A DNA stretch of 64,000 nucleotides from Bacteroidota bacterium. GTDB taxonomy: Bacteria > Bacteroidota > Bacteroidia > M30B66. Made by a program: the position numbers and the translations under genes. This document shows, piece after piece, positions 24,528 through 35,985 of the stretch. Position 1 is the first letter of the stretch. Each line of letters begins with the position of its first letter. The stretch is from contig CANHIS010000006.1 of NCBI GenBank assembly GCA_947460255.1, positions 1 to 64,000 of the forward strand, given 5' to 3'. The notes under the pieces are model-generated. The model saw only the letters and a program-made list of their open reading frames with translations. It had not been told where the DNA came from and did not search any database.

Positions 24528-24693
24528 CTTGAAATTTCAATATTGGATGGAGTTCCAGCTTGCGAAAATAGCTTGCTTTCACAAGGTCTTGAAATCATCG
24601 TTCAATCTTTTTTTAACACGTAACTCAATTTAGAGTCATTCTGTAATATTTTCTTTAAGCAATAAGTTAACTTTGTGGTTGGTTAACAAGGCT

Positions 24694-25404
24694 ATGGTAA
24701 GGAAATTTGAACAACCAGAATGCGCGCATTGTGATTCACGATCGAAGTCTGTTTTCTGCGATTTACACGGAGCACAGCTCGATACTTTAAACGAAGACAA
24801 AGGTTGTAGTTTGTTTCGTAAAGGGCAGATTATCTTCAATTCTGGCGCAAATCCCCACGGCTTATTCTGTGTTCAGGAAGGTAAGATTAAAATTTTCAGA
24901 ATTGGTGATGAAGGAAAAGAGCAGATCGTAAGATTGGCTCGTGAAGGAGATATTTTGGGCTACCGAGCGCTTTTGAGTGGAGATCGATACTCTTCATCGG
25001 CAGAAGCGCTTGAAGATGCCAAAATCTGCTTCATCCCGAAAGCTGCATTTTTAGGTTTGGTAGAAAACAACGGCGTTTTGTCGATGCAACTGATGAAATT
25101 ACTCTCCGAGGATTTGAAATTTGCAGAACACCGTATTACCGATTTGGCACAAAAGCCAGTTCGCGAAAGGGTTGCTGAAGCACTGTTGTATCTACACCAA
25201 ACATACGGATTAGAAAACGACGGACAAACAATTTCAGTTACCATGTCTCGCGAAGACATCGCAAATATTGTTGGAACTGCAACAGAAACGACCATCCGAT
25301 TGTTAAGTGAACTGAAACACGACAATGTGATTCAGCTGCAAGGGAAAAAAATCGCCATTTTAAACCACCGCGAGCTGGTTAGAATTGCAAACGTAAACGA
25401 CTGA
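24694..25404 (+). CDS. Crp/Fnr-family transcriptional regulator with N-terminal cysteine cluster
   Basis: cNMP-binding fold FRKGQIIFNSGANPHGLFCVQEGKIKIF; HTH MSREDIANIVGTATETTIRLLSELK; CX2CX8C near N-terminus. Confidence 0.92.
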   Translation: MVRKFEQPECAHCDSRSKSVFCDLHGAQLDTLNEDKGCSLFRKGQIIFNSGANPHGLFCVQEGKIKIFRIGDEGKEQIVRLAREGDILGYRALLSGDRYSSSAEALEDAKICFIPKAAFLGLVENNGVLSMQLMKLLSEDLKFAEHRITDLAQKPVRERVAEALLYLHQTYGLENDGQTISVTMSREDIANIVGTATETTIRLLSELKHDNVIQLQGKKIAILNHRELVRIANVND

Positions 25405-25437: not shown

Positions 25438-27384
25438 GTGAAAAAGAAATTACTCGTAATGACTCTGATTCTTGGGTTGGCTGTAACTGCAGCAATTCGA
25501 CCAAATACAGAAGAATCTAACCAACAAGCCAAAACAGTTCACGATTACATGCAACTCATTTTTGAGGCGCACCGAGAATTGGATACGAACGCGATTTTTC
25601 TTCCAGCGTCTCGCTGCAAAGGTTGCCATGGAAAAGATCCGCTTGGTATTGCAAACGTAACTTTGGCTGGAATTGACATTAATCTTTTCGACGACTGGGA
25701 AACATCCATGATGGGCCTCGCCGGCGTGGATCCGCTTTGGAAAGCAAAAGTGCGTCATGAAATAATGGTAAACCCAGGCAATGCCGACGAATTGCAAGAC
25801 TTGTGTACCAGTTGCCACGCGCCAATGGGACATTACAACGCATTTTACCGAAACCAAGGCCACTACACACTTGAAGATTTAGCACAAGATTCTCTTGGTC
25901 AGTCGGGTGTGAGTTGTTTAGGTTGCCACGCTATGGGCTGGGAAGGTTTAGGGGAAAGATTTACTGGCGACATTCCTTACGACACAACACGCAAAGCTTA
26001 CGGCCCATTTCCAGGACCAATGGCAGGGCCAATGCAACTATACATCAACTTTACGCCTGTTTACAGTCCACACGTGAGCGAAGGCCGATTCTGCTCTCCT
26101 TGTCACACGCTAATTTCAAACACTGTTGATCTTGATGGAAACCCAACAGGCGCAACTTTTGTAGAGCAGGCTACATTTCACGAATGGAAAAACTCGGCCT
26201 ATCCAGAGGAAAACATTCAATGCCAAACCTGCCACATGCCAAAGATCGAAGATCCGGTTAAGATTGCAGTAGGCTACACGGGATTACCCGGCCGTTCACC
26301 TTATAACCTGCACACTTTTTCAGGGGCCAATTCATTTATGGTGAACTTGATAAAGCAAAACAAAGCAGAATTAGGAGTAACTGCCACTGATGTGAATTTT
26401 GATTCAACCTTGAGCGAAATTACTCGGCTATTGCGCACACAAACTGTTGATGTAACACTTGGAACTCCAGAATTTGTTTCAGACTCGATGGTGTTTCCAT
26501 TGAGTATTTTGAATAAAGCGGGCCATAAATTTCCGAGTGGTTATCCAGCAAGAAGAGCGTTTGTGAGTTTTGTGATTTCTGCCGAAAATGGCGATACGTT
26601 GTTTAGTTCGGGTGTTCCAACCGCCAGCGGATTTATTAAAGATCTTCCTGCGGGTGTGCATCCTCATCATCAAGTAATTACATCTCCAAACCAAGCCCAA
26701 GTCTATGAAATGATTATGGGTGATGTGAATGGAAACATCACAACAGTGCTTGAACGAGGAGCTGTGCATTTAAAAGACAATAGAATTCCGCCACTTGGAT
26801 TTTCCACTACACACCAAGTGTATGATACTGTGGCAATTGTTGGCGAGGCAAATTCAGATCCCGATTTTAACCGCAATGGAAACTTTGAGGGCTCAGGCGC
26901 TGATATCGTGTACTATAAAGTTCCAATGAGCTTGTTAAACGACAGGGTAAACATTTCGGCACGCGTATATTATCAATCGGTTCCTCCTCATTGGCTTGAT
27001 GAGATGCGCATGTTTAACGCGCCCGAAATTGAATCATTTTTAGGTATGTATGACGCTGCCGACAAAGCTGCGATAATGCTTGTAGAAGACACGCTCGAAC
27101 AAGTTTTAATTCCACTAAAATCTGCTTGGGCAGGTAAGGATAAAGCGCCCGAAATTTTCCCAAATCCAGCCACTGGAAATGATCTAGTGCAATTGTTTTA
27201 CTCAGGCAAAATTACGTCTGTGGCTGTTTATACACTGAGCGGACAAAGAGTTTCATCTTCGTTTTCTAAAAACGGCATGAGCAGTTGGAAACTTGAAATG
27301 CCACAAGCTGCGGGTGTTTATCTTGTGCGAATTCAAGCTGGAAACGTAAGCTACACCAGAAAATTCATCCGCCGAAACAACTAA
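25438..27384 (+). CDS. secreted multiheme c-type cytochrome with T9SS C-terminal sorting domain
   Basis: Five CxxCH (CKGCH, CTSCH, CLGCH, CSPCH, CQTCH); C-terminus FPNPATGNDLVQLFYSGKITSVAVYTLSGQRV...AAGVYLVRIQAGNVSYTRKFIRRNN. Confidence 0.88.
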   Translation: MKKKLLVMTLILGLAVTAAIRPNTEESNQQAKTVHDYMQLIFEAHRELDTNAIFLPASRCKGCHGKDPLGIANVTLAGIDINLFDDWETSMMGLAGVDPLWKAKVRHEIMVNPGNADELQDLCTSCHAPMGHYNAFYRNQGHYTLEDLAQDSLGQSGVSCLGCHAMGWEGLGERFTGDIPYDTTRKAYGPFPGPMAGPMQLYINFTPVYSPHVSEGRFCSPCHTLISNTVDLDGNPTGATFVEQATFHEWKNSAYPEENIQCQTCHMPKIEDPVKIAVGYTGLPGRSPYNLHTFSGANSFMVNLIKQNKAELGVTATDVNFDSTLSEITRLLRTQTVDVTLGTPEFVSDSMVFPLSILNKAGHKFPSGYPARRAFVSFVISAENGDTLFSSGVPTASGFIKDLPAGVHPHHQVITSPNQAQVYEMIMGDVNGNITTVLERGAVHLKDNRIPPLGFSTTHQVYDTVAIVGEANSDPDFNRNGNFEGSGADIVYYKVPMSLLNDRVNISARVYYQSVPPHWLDEMRMFNAPEIESFLGMYDAADKAAIMLVEDTLEQVLIPLKSAWAGKDKAPEIFPNPATGNDLVQLFYSGKITSVAVYTLSGQRVSSSFSKNGMSSWKLEMPQAAGVYLVRIQAGNVSYTRKFIRRNN

Positions 27385-30300: not shown

Positions 30301-30338
30301 AAAAAGGCCGAATCTCGAAAGGGATTCGGCCTTTTTTG
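30301..30338 (+). terminator. rho-independent terminator
   Basis: AAGGCCGAATC-tcgaaag-GGATTCGGCCTTTTTT. Confidence 0.9.
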
Positions 30339-30381: not shown

Positions 30382-30415
30382 TGACAATTATCAGGTTTGG
30401 GCTTGAGGTCGGTCA
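30382..30415 (+). promoter_or_regulatory. tandem Crp/Fnr-like sites, TGACAATTATCA (30382-30393) and TGAGGTCGGTCA (30404-30415)
   Basis: Two TGA-N6-TCA dyads, centres 22 bp apart; proximal centre 36.5 bp from the final G of AATCTTTG (30439-30446). Confidence 0.7.
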
Positions 30416-30473
30416 TATGTTCCGGAATTGAAACGCGGAATCTTTGTAGAAAGGATTTTTAGCCTCTTTTCGC

Positions 30474-31064
30474 ATGAGTCATTTCCGACATATTAATTTT
30501 CAATGGATTCGTGAAGAAGACTTGCTCGACTTTATTGAGCAGAAACATCACGCATACAGCAGAAACATGCTGGAGCTAATCGCCAGGAATTTTCAATCCG
30601 TGCTGAAATCATACAGAAACATTTCGGAGGAACTCAACGACACCTGCAACATTTTGCTTCAACTGCAAGAGCAGGTTTCTAAGTTGATCGAAATGGAGGA
30701 GTGCAGCCTTTTTCCATTTATTCGAAAGCTGTTAGAGGTGAATAACGAACCAGAACCTTTGAGGTTTTTGAACGTGAATCTCACAGGGAGCACCATCCGG
30801 TCAATCCGCGACGAGCATTCTCGAGTAATTGCCTTGCTGCATTCATTGAGAAAACTGACCAACAATTACAAAGCACCCGATGATGCTTCAGAGATTCACA
30901 AGTTGGTGTTAGCCGAACTGGAAGAGTTTGACCAAGATTTCATTCAACACCTACACCGCGAAAAAGAGTACTTGTTTCCAAAAATAATCAGTCTTGAAAA
31001 AAGGGTAGTTCAACGCTCAGGAAAGGCTTCCATGGACAACCAAGCCAATTGGAGCCCCGAATAA
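30474..31064 (+). CDS. hemerythrin-domain / RIC-like iron-sulfur repair protein
   Basis: KHHAYSRNMLELI, MEECSLFPFIRKL, RDEHSRVIALLHSL, HLHREKEYLFPKI. Confidence 0.8.
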   Translation: MSHFRHINFQWIREEDLLDFIEQKHHAYSRNMLELIARNFQSVLKSYRNISEELNDTCNILLQLQEQVSKLIEMEECSLFPFIRKLLEVNNEPEPLRFLNVNLTGSTIRSIRDEHSRVIALLHSLRKLTNNYKAPDDASEIHKLVLAELEEFDQDFIQHLHREKEYLFPKIISLEKRVVQRSGKASMDNQANWSPE

Positions 31065-31079
31065 ACCTAAAACGCTATT

Positions 31080-33509
31080 GTGATGATCACCTCCCAACCC
31101 GGTCAGAAACAAACTTCTACCAATTTGCATTGCTACCATTGTGGCGAGCCGTGCAAGGAAACAACAATCCATCTCGAAGAAAAAGCATTCTGCTGCGATG
31201 GCTGTAAATTGGTGTTTGAAATCCTTTACGAAAACAACCTTTGCACCTATTACGATGTTGCAAAATCATCGGGAAATTCGCCCGATTCATCTGTTTATGT
31301 GGGTAAATTCACTTACCTAAAACAGCCTGAAGTGCTGAAACAATTGCTTCATTTTAGTTCAGAATCGCAGCACCACATCAAGCTCTTCGTTCCAAGAATT
31401 CACTGCAGCTCGTGCATTTGGCTGCTCGAGAATCTCCAAAAACTCGACGGAGGTGTAATTAGCTCATCGGTAAATTTTCCCCGCAGGGAAGTAAATATTG
31501 TTTACAATCCAGCACAAACCGATTTGAGTAAAATTGCTGCACGCATGGCCAGTATTGGTTATGAACCGCACATCAGCTTGGGAGACATCGACAAAATACA
31601 GCGCCGAAAAGCAGTTAGAGGTCAATGGCTAAAAATCGGAGTTGCAGGTTTTTGTTTTGGCAATATTATGATGATGAGCTTTCCGGAATATTTCTCTATT
31701 GGATCGCTTGCCGGACAAGAATCATTGCAGCAAACTTTCATCTGGCTAAACTTTGCACTCGCACTACCTGTACTCTTTTACAGTGCGCAGGAGTTTTTCG
31801 TTTCTGGCTGGACGGCTCTCAGAAACAAGCATTTGAATATTGACTTGCCTATTGCAGCAGCCGTCTTGATGACTTTTCTCCGATCAGTTTATGAGATTAC
31901 CTCAGGAACAGGCGCTGGATACTTCGATTCTATGGCGGGCATTGTGTTTTTTATGTTGATAGGCCGGGCGTTTCAAAGCCGCACCTATGAAACATTGTCG
32001 TTCGATCGAGATTATAAATCATACTTCCCTGTAGCAGTTTCCATCTTAAAACCCGATGGGACTGAAGATCAGATCACAGTGAGCGACCTAAAAAAGGGCA
32101 TGCGAATGCGCATCCGAAACCAAGAAGTTGTGCCTGCCGATGCAATTCTGCTCCGTGGAGACGCGCGTATAGATTACAGCTTCGTAACAGGAGAATCAGA
32201 TCCCGAGAAAAAGCTTTTAGGTGATATTGTTTATGCTGGCGGCCGACAAACTGGTGCATCAATCGAGCTAGAAATCGTAAAGCCTGTGAAATATTCCTAC
32301 CTCACACAACTTTGGAATCACGCTGCATTTAGAAAAGATGATGCTGAAGCGGAACAGGCTTCCATGGTGAACAAAATCAACCAGTATTTTACCGTCGGAA
32401 TTTTTGTTATTGCCTCAATCGCTGCATTTTATTGGTGGAATGCCGGAGAAAACGCCCGAATGATGGATGCTGTTACAACTATACTGATTGTTGCTTGTCC
32501 GTGCATTTTGCTGCTGGCGGCCACATTCACCAATGGAAACGTTTTGAGCATTTTAGGTAAAAACGGACTTTACCTTAAAAATGCCTTTGTAATTGAAAAG
32601 CTGGCTGGAGCCAATGCCATAGTATTCGACAAAACCGGAACGATCACCTTGAACAGTCAGGCTGCAATTCGTTTTGTTGGAGAACAGCTGCCGGAGAAAT
32701 ATCGCCAATCAATTTACAGTTTGGCTATACAATCTACACATCCGTTGAGTTTGCTCATTTCGGCATCATTCAAGGGCCTTCAAGCCAAAATAGTGAAAGA
32801 ATTTTGCGATGTAACAGGCAGCGGCTTGAAAGGAGAAGTAGATGGAAAAGCTGTTCAACTTGGCTCGGCAAGCTTTCTGGGCATTAAAACGGTAAATCTA
32901 TTTTCCGACACGCGCGTGTATGTTTCTGTTGATGAGGAAATTTTAGGTTACTACAGCTTCGATCACGCTTTGCGGCCTGGTCTTGCGAACTTAATTTCCA
33001 AATTAAAACAGCGATTTTCATTGTTTCTGCTCAGTGGAGACAAAGAAAACGACAAGGATCGCTTGCGTTCATTTTTTGCAGAAGATGCCATGCAATTTAG
33101 GCAACAGCCCGACGACAAACTTCAATTTATTTCTAATCTCCAACAAAGTGGAAACAAGGTTTTGATGGTTGGAGATGGGCTAAATGATGCAGGAGCTTTG
33201 CGGCAAAGCGATGCAGGCATTGCTGTGTCGGATAATGTGAACAATTTCTCGCCTGCCTGTGATGCAATTTTGGATGGAAAAGTGTTGCCCAAACTAGCGT
33301 CGATGCTTCAATATTGCCGAGATGGAAAACGTGTGATTGCAGTTTCATTCGCGCTTTCGCTGCTATACAATTTTGTGGGCTTGTACTTTTCTGTACGTGG
33401 AGAATTAGAGCCTGTTGTTGCTGCGATACTTATGCCTGTAACATCGATTAGCATTGTAAGTTTCGCCACCATCACAAGTTCATTGATGGCGCGCCGTCGT
33501 GGTTTATAG
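31080..33509 (+). CDS. ccoI: cbb3-type oxidase-associated copper-translocating P-type ATPase
   Basis: CHYCGEPC...FCCDGCKLVFEIL; HCSSCIWLLENL; CPCILLL; DKTGTITL; GDGLNDAGAL. Confidence 0.93.
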   Translation: MMITSQPGQKQTSTNLHCYHCGEPCKETTIHLEEKAFCCDGCKLVFEILYENNLCTYYDVAKSSGNSPDSSVYVGKFTYLKQPEVLKQLLHFSSESQHHIKLFVPRIHCSSCIWLLENLQKLDGGVISSSVNFPRREVNIVYNPAQTDLSKIAARMASIGYEPHISLGDIDKIQRRKAVRGQWLKIGVAGFCFGNIMMMSFPEYFSIGSLAGQESLQQTFIWLNFALALPVLFYSAQEFFVSGWTALRNKHLNIDLPIAAAVLMTFLRSVYEITSGTGAGYFDSMAGIVFFMLIGRAFQSRTYETLSFDRDYKSYFPVAVSILKPDGTEDQITVSDLKKGMRMRIRNQEVVPADAILLRGDARIDYSFVTGESDPEKKLLGDIVYAGGRQTGASIELEIVKPVKYSYLTQLWNHAAFRKDDAEAEQASMVNKINQYFTVGIFVIASIAAFYWWNAGENARMMDAVTTILIVACPCILLLAATFTNGNVLSILGKNGLYLKNAFVIEKLAGANAIVFDKTGTITLNSQAAIRFVGEQLPEKYRQSIYSLAIQSTHPLSLLISASFKGLQAKIVKEFCDVTGSGLKGEVDGKAVQLGSASFLGIKTVNLFSDTRVYVSVDEEILGYYSFDHALRPGLANLISKLKQRFSLFLLSGDKENDKDRLRSFFAEDAMQFRQQPDDKLQFISNLQQSGNKVLMVGDGLNDAGALRQSDAGIAVSDNVNNFSPACDAILDGKVLPKLASMLQYCRDGKRVIAVSFALSLLYNFVGLYFSVRGELEPVVAAILMPVTSISIVSFATITSSLMARRRGL

Positions 33510-33536: not shown

Positions 33537-33601
33537 TGATAAATATCATAAAGCACCCTGACGGCTATCATTTTGCCCTTGTATAGCCTGAAATACTTTT
33601 G
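33537..33601 (+). promoter_or_regulatory. cbb3 operon promoter with tandem Crp/Fnr-like sites
   Basis: TGATAAATATCA (33537-33548), TGACGGCTATCA (33559-33570), TTTG (33572-33575), TACTTTTG (33594-33601). Confidence 0.75.
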
Positions 33602-33635: not shown

Positions 33636-33827
33636 GTGAGCGCGCTATTCATTTTAATCATTATCAGCATGCTGGTAGCGGGAAGTTTTCTCTTCCTGTT
33701 TCTCCATGCTGTTAAAAAAGGGCAGTACGATGATACGTACACACCTTCTGTAAGAATGCTGTTTGATGATTCAACACCAGCAGATCCTACAACTCCTTCC
33801 CAAGAAACCCTAAATACAAAAAACTGA
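33636..33827 (+). CDS. ccoS: cbb3-type cytochrome oxidase assembly protein CcoS
   Basis: Small protein with N-terminal TM, directly before ccoNO. Confidence 0.85.
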   Translation: MSALFILIIISMLVAGSFLFLFLHAVKKGQYDDTYTPSVRMLFDDSTPADPTTPSQETLNTKN

Positions 33828-33834
33828 AGCTGTT

Positions 33835-35985
33835 ATGGAACTAGAACGTTTTCAGTATGATAACAAAATTGTCAGGAATTTCGCAATTGCCTCGATAGTC
33901 TTTGGTCTGATCGGAATGCTTGTTGGCTTGTATGCAGCCCTCGAGATGGTTTTCCCTTCATTGAATCTCGGCATACCTTACACAACCTTTGGAAGGATTC
34001 GCCCCTTGCACACCAACGCGGTGATTTTCGCATTTGTAGGAAACGGAATCTTTACTGGTGTGTATTATTCACTTCAGCGTTTGTGCAAGACCAGAATGTA
34101 CAGCGACGTGCTGAGCAGCATTCACTTCTGGGGCTGGCAATTGATCATTCTTGCCGCAGCCATTTCTCTTCCTTTAGGCTTTACCACAGGAAAGGAATAT
34201 GCCGAATTAGAATGGCCGATCGACATTGCAATTACCCTCATTTGGGTGGTTTTTGGCGTAAACATGTTTGGTACAATCCTCACCCGAAGAGTGCAGCATT
34301 TGTACGTAGCTATTTGGTTTTACATCGCCACATTCGTTACCGTTGCAGTGCTTCACATTGTGAATTCTGTAGAAATTCCGGTAACGCTCTTTAAGTCTTA
34401 TTCTTGGTATGCTGGCGTTCAGGATGCTTTGGTACAATGGTGGTATGGACACAATGCGGTTGCGTTTTTCCTTACCACGCCTTACTTAGGCTTGATGTAT
34501 TACTTCATCCCGAAAGCAGCTAACCGTCCTGTTTATTCCTACCGTTTATCAATCATCCACTTTTGGGCGTTGATCTTCTTGTATATCTGGGCAGGCCCTC
34601 ACCACTTGCTTTACACGGCGCTTCCCGACTGGGCGCAATCGCTTGGAACGGTTTTCTCATTAATGCTTATTGCTCCTTCCTGGGGCGGGATGATTAACGG
34701 GTTGCTCACCTTGCGCGGTGCCTGGGACAAAGTGCGGGAAGATGTAGTGTTGAAATTCATGGTGGTCGCCATTACCGCTTATGGGATGTCGACTTTCGAA
34801 GGCCCAATGCTTTCCTTGAAAAATGTGAATGCAATTGGTCACTTCACCGATTGGATTGTTGGTCACGTTCATATTGGCGCACTTGGCTGGAACGGAATGC
34901 TCACATTCGGGATGTTGTATTGGTTGTTCCCTAGAATTTATGGAAAACCGTTGTTCTCCAAAAAGCTCGCGAACTTCCATTTCTGGATTTCCACACTCGG
35001 AATTATGTTTTACGCAATTCCACTTTACATCGCAGGTCTTACACAATTCGAAATGTGGAGAGACTTCACCGAAGATGGTCTATTGCGCTATCCAAACTTC
35101 CTCGAAACAGTAACACAATTGGTTCCCATGTACGCCTTACGTTCTGTTGGTGGCGCCTTGTACTTGATTGGGTTTATTGTGATGATTTACAACCTAGTAA
35201 AAACAGCGTTGGCTGGAAAGTTAATTGCTGAAGAGTCTGCAGAAGCAGCACCGTTGGCAAAAATTCAACATGCGAAATATGCTGGAGAAGGCTGGCACCG
35301 TTGGATTGAACGTCGCCCAATGCAAATGCTTGTGATGAGCTTGGTGGTGATTCTAATTGGTGGCGTGATTGAAATGATTCCAACATTCCTAGTGAAGGAA
35401 AACATCCCTACAATTGCATCTGTACAACCTTATACAGCGCTCGAATTACAAGGTCGTGATATCTACTTACGTGAAGGTTGTTATACTTGTCACAGTCAAA
35501 TGATTCGTCCGTTCCGTTTCGAAACCGAACGGTATGGTGAATATTCAAAAGCGGGTGAATTTGTATACGATCACCCATTCCAATGGGGCTCGAAACGGAC
35601 TGGCCCCGATTTACAACGAGAAGGCGGAAAGTATCCGAACAGCTGGCACTACAATCACATGTACGACCCAACCAGCATGTCGCCAGGATCGTTGATGCCG
35701 CCATATCCTTGGTTGATTGATGATGATCTCGATACATCCACCACTGCGGCTAAAATCGAAGCCATGCAAACTTTGGGTGTTCCTTATCCAGCCGGTTATG
35801 CATCGGTGGCAAACCTCGACTTAAGTAAGCAAGCCAATGAAATCGCAAAAGACCTCTTGGCTTCAGGCATTGAAACAGCACCCAACAAAGAAATCATTGC
35901 GATGATTGCCTATCTGCAAAGGTTAGGTATCGACATCAAAGGACAGAACAAAGTAATTTTCACTAAGCCTACGGCATCCAAATAA
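33835..35985 (+). CDS. ccoNO: fused cbb3 cytochrome c oxidase subunits I and II
   Basis: CcoN HxxH motifs (VHIGALGWNGMLTFG); CcoO REGCYTCHSQMIRPFRFETERYG. Confidence 0.97.
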   Translation: MELERFQYDNKIVRNFAIASIVFGLIGMLVGLYAALEMVFPSLNLGIPYTTFGRIRPLHTNAVIFAFVGNGIFTGVYYSLQRLCKTRMYSDVLSSIHFWGWQLIILAAAISLPLGFTTGKEYAELEWPIDIAITLIWVVFGVNMFGTILTRRVQHLYVAIWFYIATFVTVAVLHIVNSVEIPVTLFKSYSWYAGVQDALVQWWYGHNAVAFFLTTPYLGLMYYFIPKAANRPVYSYRLSIIHFWALIFLYIWAGPHHLLYTALPDWAQSLGTVFSLMLIAPSWGGMINGLLTLRGAWDKVREDVVLKFMVVAITAYGMSTFEGPMLSLKNVNAIGHFTDWIVGHVHIGALGWNGMLTFGMLYWLFPRIYGKPLFSKKLANFHFWISTLGIMFYAIPLYIAGLTQFEMWRDFTEDGLLRYPNFLETVTQLVPMYALRSVGGALYLIGFIVMIYNLVKTALAGKLIAEESAEAAPLAKIQHAKYAGEGWHRWIERRPMQMLVMSLVVILIGGVIEMIPTFLVKENIPTIASVQPYTALELQGRDIYLREGCYTCHSQMIRPFRFETERYGEYSKAGEFVYDHPFQWGSKRTGPDLQREGGKYPNSWHYNHMYDPTSMSPGSLMPPYPWLIDDDLDTSTTAAKIEAMQTLGVPYPAGYASVANLDLSKQANEIAKDLLASGIETAPNKEIIAMIAYLQRLGIDIKGQNKVIFTKPTASK

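Follow-up and report, generated by a model that had tools for sequence, protein, structure and literature searches.

Which regulatory signal is shared by two promoters of a single cbb3 oxidase gene cluster, and which protein would read it? The window analysed here, the whole stretch of 64,000 nucleotides from a Bacteroidota genome, raises this question by carrying, upstream of a hemerythrin-domain gene and again upstream of the cco genes, two short dyads (TGA-N6-TCA) placed in front of a -7 element with the same geometry. To our knowledge, few descriptions exist of oxygen control in Bacteroidota. A literature search that reached few subscription journals recovered no relevant paper on tandem FNR sites or on FNR control of cbb3 oxidase in Bacteroidetes, and none describing the Bacteroidia promoter design reported below.

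Architecture of the two promoters

The elements of the two promoters and the genes that they precede are the following.

30301-30338, + strand: terminator-like inverted repeat followed by a T run, between the upstream gene and the hemerythrin promoter (read from the sequence)
30382-30393, centre 30387.5, no strand assigned: distal dyad of the hemerythrin promoter, TGACAATTATCA, predicted position -63.5
30404-30415, centre 30409.5, no strand assigned: proximal dyad of the hemerythrin promoter, TGAGGTCGGTCA, predicted position -41.5 (class II)
30439-30446, + strand: -7 element of the hemerythrin promoter, AATCTTTG (consensus TAnnTTTG)
30451, + strand: predicted transcription start of the hemerythrin gene, from the position of the -7 box
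30474-31064, + strand: hemerythrin-domain protein of 196 aa, RIC/YtfE-like but divergent
31080-33509, + strand: CcoI-type P-type ATPase
33537-33548, centre 33542.5, no strand assigned: distal dyad of the cco promoter, TGATAAATATCA
33559-33570, centre 33564.5, no strand assigned: proximal dyad of the cco promoter, TGACGGCTATCA
33594-33601, + strand: -7 element of the cco promoter, TACTTTTG
33636-33827, + strand: small CcoS-like ORF with a GTG start, first gene after the cco promoter (read from the sequence)
33835-35985, + strand: CcoN-CcoO fusion of the cbb3 oxidase

Read directly from the sequence, the centres of the two hemerythrin dyads are 22 bp apart, and the proximal centre lies 36.5 bp before the last base of the -7 element (30446 - 30409.5). 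The cco module, 3.15 kb from the hemerythrin module, again has its dyad centres 22 bp apart, with 33601 - 33564.5 giving 36.5. An earlier sequence-only reading of the window had located the hemerythrin elements and claimed that the double-site geometry is repeated at the two promoters; all its coordinates and distances at the hemerythrin promoter were correct, and both intervals are indeed identical to the base.

The hemerythrin gene is separated by a 15-base gap from the CcoI-type ATPase gene, and the two are probably carried on one transcript. Small ORFs homologous to the CcoS-like ORF are also found behind the module in other genomes, and the gene order fnr - multihaem cytochrome - hemerythrin - ccoI - ccoN - ccoP recurs in most relatives, where contigs allow. 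The multihaem cytochrome, which bears a C-terminal secretion tail and lies directly 3' of fnr in the window (25438-27384), is kept at most of the loci seen in the genus and family.

The hemerythrin gene product is nearest to RIC/YtfE, at a score below the family cut-off (TIGR03652, 87 bits against 204.7). Over the six positions that we take, from the YtfE structure, to be the di-iron ligands, alignment with YtfE revealed an incomplete set: L or I stands in place of H129 in 9 of 9 orthologues, and 5 of the 9 have no counterpart of H204, suggesting that the metal site of this cco-linked protein may be altered.

Occurrence in the genome

The bare 22-bp double dyad was found at four places in the 4.13-Mb genome, and the backwards pattern at none. 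These places are the hemerythrin and cco promoters, a site on C13 that precedes a universal stress protein gene, and a fourth on C26 that has no evident promoter. A second scan, adding the in-register -7 box, allowing up to 2 mismatches and using a reversed-pattern control, returned six matches against none in the control. Five of them precede cco, the universal stress protein, hemerythrin, a small lipoprotein-like gene and a 127-aa coiled-coil-like protein, while the sixth, inside a gene, is probably due to chance. Judged by eye, the 127-aa protein resembles one encoded behind the module in another genome (L161); an uncharacterised coiled-coil-like protein of about 130 aa is seen behind the module in two different genomes, L188 (C28, 34051-34115) and L161. 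Finally, Markov-1 shuffling of the 190 bp in front of the hemerythrin gene, repeated 200,000 times, did not once produce the pair with an in-register TTTG. The earlier judgement that chance is unlikely is therefore borne out, a chance origin being ruled out by the genome scans, the reversed controls, the shuffles and the spacing counts at cco promoters given below.

Conservation at hemerythrin promoters

Orthologues of the hemerythrin gene were gathered from 8 other genomes of the genus and family (43-77% identity), making 9 promoters with that of the window. More distant hits (L016-L036 and L092-L095, about 21-32% identity), which look like different hemerythrins, were left out. Both dyads, at exactly 22 bp and in register with TTTG, are present in 8 of the 9 promoters, a count that does not represent independent events as the species are related. 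The exception is a member of the genus (L011) in which the pair is lost and a single dyad is left.

Spacers vary freely among the orthologues, and the elements themselves carry a recurrent signature. In the pair-bearing promoters, the distal dyad reads TGA[CT]..TCA (8/8) and the upstream half of the proximal dyad is the off-consensus TGAG (8/8), whereas the proximal dyads of cco promoters from the same family have TGAC or TGAT (7/7) and never TGAG (0/7). The first T of the -7 box is likewise missing in all eight (AATC, AACC, CATT, CAAA, CATC). The weak TGAG half-site and the T-less -7 box are thus conserved at hemerythrin promoters only and are not typical of cco promoters. Their retention in all eight, together with the lack of a conserved -33 TTG in the cco set, supports the earlier remark that the weak core would suit a strictly activator-dependent promoter.

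Conservation at cco promoters and across Bacteroidia

Sampling was extended to the 600 bp preceding ccoNO in 66 genomes from 31 Bacteroidia families, and these regions were searched for TGA-N6-TCA dyads. A pair at exactly 22 bp was detected in 44 of the 66 genomes, spanning 21 of the 31 families, where shuffling predicts 0.005; other spacings were scarce, with 23 bp in two genomes and 33, 52 and 60 bp in one each. At 36.5 bp from the proximal centre, the 44 promoters display TTTG (35), TTTA (8) or a one-base shift (1), and the A of the -7 TA is kept in 41 of them. The columns between the elements are almost without information, while the dyads and the -7 box are held, and no conservation of a TTG near -33 was detected in these 44 promoters. 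The perfect pair is absent from the remaining 22 regions, some of which carry a degraded proximal dyad with an in-register -7 box, two the 23-bp spacing and about six a single dyad at the class II position.

The sequence-only reading had proposed an alignment with orthologous cco and hemerythrin loci, in which loss of the dyads or of the 22-bp spacing would count against it; dyads, spacing and register were clearly kept in most of them.

A free-spacing scan of 392 Bacteroidia genomes (spacing of 12-42 bp, TAnnTTTG in register, reversed control) yielded matches in 167 genomes, and none in any genome for the control. Among the 150 matches listed, the spacing was 22 bp in 115, 23 bp in 11 and 32-35 bp in 12, and spacings of 24-25 and 28-31 bp did not occur. 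The second cluster lies one helical turn further out, which places both dyads on one DNA face and suggests that the two dimers would need to share it. According to functions assigned by eye from translations, the genes behind the module elsewhere encode CcoS/CcoN, universal stress proteins, cytochromes c, DoxX-like proteins and a REC-Crp regulator. When about 300 genomes from other classes of the phylum were scanned with a pattern that also requires the Bacteroidota -7 box, 3 gave matches, and two of these belong to one genus. The 22-bp pair is therefore a rigid and widely conserved promoter design across the class Bacteroidia.

Several genomes displayed particular distributions of the module. 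One (G222, family f21, genus g25) has 16 matches, many of them on contig C56, suggesting a large low-oxygen gene island. Dyad pairs with in-register -7 boxes on both sides, apparently bidirectional promoters as judged from this layout, were observed in G222 (C56, 52438-52533), G383 (C47, 29391-29486), G636 (C1, 1378362-1378457), G204 (C11, 986315-986410) and G357 (C7, 1686244-1686339). In another class, two genomes of one genus (G615 and G650, family f113) contain the full module with TAnnTTTG 4 and 6 times, and apart from this genus the approximately 300 genomes from outside the class have almost none of it.

The rigid 65-bp signature dyad-N10-dyad-N23-TAnnTTTG, with 0 control matches in the 392 genomes, thus makes it possible to recognise the regulon in sequence data; the genes that it marks are those of cbb3 oxidase, universal stress proteins, cytochromes and REC-Crp, along with others of unknown function.

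Candidate regulator

A candidate activator is encoded about 5 kb upstream of the hemerythrin promoter.

24673-25404, + strand: four-cysteine FNR-type regulator (TTG start listed, likely ATG at 24694)

The protein passes the cut-offs of PF00027, PF13545 and PF00325 (a cNMP-binding-like sensor and a Crp-type HTH). It possesses an N-terminal C-x2-C-x8-C motif, with a cysteine spacing different from that of E. coli FNR, and a fourth cysteine, C112 in ALEDAKIC, that aligns with the C of ALETSMVC in FNR; all four are kept in 25 of the 28 class-wide FNR homologues examined. The NCBIfam Fnr model PRK11161 was the best-scoring one yet remained below its cut-off (118.8 against 228 bits), and the protein is for this reason named FNR-type and not an Fnr orthologue. 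Four Crp-type HTH proteins of the genome exceed the cut-offs, and this is the only one that has the cysteines and no CRP-type Arg180, the three others having R180 and no cysteine motif. Under the specificity rule R180-G3, E181-A6 (PMC1274295), a recognition helix with T180, E181 and R185, as this protein has, should favour TGA half-sites that lack the CRP-type G. The sites agree with this, a G preceding TGA in only 2 of the 44 distal dyads of the cco set. No other FNR-type candidate was found in the genome, and this protein is probably the one that binds the module. No dyad pair indicative of autoregulation was seen upstream of fnr (24528-24690). The presence of an FNR homologue was also considered as a predictor of the cco pair and proved not to be discriminating, homologues being found in 93 of 119 sampled genomes.

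The site alone does not identify its regulator, since some Bacteroidia (G006, for example) have the cco pair while no four-cysteine FNR was found there, only a REC-Crp regulator. REC-Crp is common in other families and is the only close homologue found in G006, so that the reader may depend on the lineage, with different proteins reading the module in different lineages. Such regulators (L080, L081, L082 and L167) are widespread in Bacteroidia, with an FNR-like recognition helix; a histidine kinase adjoins the gene in L080 and L081, and in L167 the module lies upstream of the regulator's own gene. One may thus ask whether, class-wide, the module belongs mainly to REC-Crp response regulators, FNR having taken over in this family. 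This would agree with the wide distribution of REC-Crp homologues (open frames of about 350-380 aa), their location near cco in G006 and G011, the histidine kinase encoded close to them at several cco loci, the position of the module in front of the regulator gene itself in L167 and the resemblance between the ES.IR of their recognition helix and the ET.IR of FNR. However, none of the four above-cut-off Crp-type proteins of the window's genome is fused to a REC domain, so REC-Crp cannot explain the window unless its gene sits in an assembly gap, and we regard this reading as unlikely.

We find it improbable that the binder is another Crp/Fnr-type protein, be it a DNR/HcpR-like sensor of nitric oxide or any of the three further Crp-like proteins that the genome encodes. 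A nitric-oxide sensor would fit the distant RIC/YtfE likeness of the hemerythrin, a family often under nitrogen-oxide control (PMC1274295), but HcpR2 sites (GTAACnnnnGTTAC; PMC1274295) are unlike these dyads. The three R180 proteins would call for a G before TGA, at odds with the distal dyads of the cco set, and the partner genes, those of the cbb3 oxidase, speak against both kinds of binder.

Promoter position and direction of control

In Flavobacterium psychrophilum, the TAnnTTTG box occupies positions -12 to -5 (PMC9723704). Combined with the 36.5-bp register, this would place the dyads at -41.5 and -63.5, and hence the proximal one at the class II position. Traits of two promoter classes were found: the weak or absent core element under the activator typical of class II (the -33 TTG being unconserved in the 44 cco promoters), and the second dyad upstream on the same face typical of tandem, class III-like FNR promoters (22 bp dominant, 32-35 bp secondary).

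Regulation in the opposite direction, with the paired sites mainly repressing through two dimers that occlude polymerase in air or under another signal, has a precedent in E. coli, where FNR can repress from two sites, for example at ndh (a title cited in PMC3411108). It appears very improbable here: the predicted position of the proximal dyad is exactly -41.5, the usual place in FNR-activated E. coli promoters (19/23 within 4 nt; PMC3688515), the core should be weak unaided as a conserved -33 element is absent, and cbb3 oxidase rises under oxygen limitation in F. psychrophilum (PMC9723704). That the shared geometry is a leftover of promoter duplication between neighbouring genes, free of functional constraint, is hardly credible: both copies do lie in one cluster, but a recent duplication is contradicted by their divergent spacers and by the separate conservation of the hemerythrin and cco copies in orthologues, each with its own signature, the flanks as well as the spacers are almost unconserved in the 44 cco promoters, and the module also precedes unrelated genes elsewhere.

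Proposed mechanism

The sites, their spacing, register and conservation, and the sole FNR-type candidate of the genome point to a two-dimer, FNR-type, activator-dependent low-oxygen promoter, one copy of which precedes each transcription unit of the cbb3 cluster, a reading to which we assign a probability of about 0.8. The "defined two-dimer regulatory module" of the sequence-only reading thus finds support in the dyads and the 22-bp and 36.5-bp distances kept in orthologues, and in its recurrence across Bacteroidia. The class-wide extent of the design, the predicted class II position of the proximal site and the probable binding protein go beyond that reading. At low oxygen, the four-cysteine FNR-type protein would bind as two dimers, one on the strong distal dyad (-63.5) and the other on the weaker proximal dyad (-41.5), where a -33 element would otherwise be. 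Acting as a class II activator, the proximal dimer would touch sigma and RNA polymerase; the distal dimer would assist by holding the proximal one, possibly through cooperative binding, and/or by touching the alpha subunit. The first copy would drive hemerythrin-ccoI and the second ccoS-ccoNO-ccoP-ccoG, and with one module per unit the cbb3 oxidase cluster would be switched on together.

A more demanding version, which we hold tentatively and lean slightly against, is that of an obligate stereospecific two-dimer unit, a general Bacteroidia low-oxygen design serving both FNR and REC-Crp. The -41.5 site would then be weak by design and be filled by a second dimer that the strong distal site recruits, the contacts between them tolerating only 22 bp or one turn more and producing a steep oxygen threshold; the pair being symmetric, the same unit could fire both ways at divergent promoters.

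Comparison with known systems

The hemerythrin-domain protein of the window shares with the RIC/YtfE/ScdA di-iron repair proteins a hemerythrin-like domain and a similar C-terminal sequence, but its score does not come near the family cut-off, and 9 of 9 orthologues are short of one or more of the ligand histidines.

Proteobacteria use a protein of the FNR/FixK type to activate their cbb3 oxidase genes when oxygen is low, and a single box is usual in the fixNOQP/ccoNOQP promoters. The cbb3 oxidase genes and the FNR/FixK-type sites, predicted here, are common to these systems (FixK, FnrL, Anr) and to the Bacteroidia cluster. FixK controls fixNOQP in rhizobia (available part of PMC7888657).

With the class II FNR promoters of E. 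coli (narG, dmsA, nirB), the present ones share a weak or absent upstream core and, as predicted here, a dyad at -41.5 and oxygen-controlled respiratory genes. They differ in commonly carrying two sites whose spacing is fixed at 22 bp, and in having the Bacteroidota TAnnTTTG as their core. In E. coli, an FNR site lies within 4 nt of -41.5 in 19 of the 23 activated promoters with a known start, and 89% of the FNR peaks of the direct regulon have one site (PMC3688515), so that the proximal site, at its predicted position, would be an ordinary class II site, and the fixed second site is the point of difference.

A comparable layout is that of the tandem FNR promoters of E. coli (yfiD and the semi-synthetic melR series), where two FNR dimers bind, as proposed here, one near -41 and the second upstream. 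At yfiD, the second site, at -93.5, lowers expression, and the melR series (Barnard, Green and Busby 2003) tolerated many upstream positions, as described in the available part of PMC11264516. Whereas the E. coli work relied mainly on built promoters, these Bacteroidia promoters provide a natural test of two activator dimers sharing one promoter, in which the second site is mostly fixed at the predicted -63.5 and one spacing dominates.
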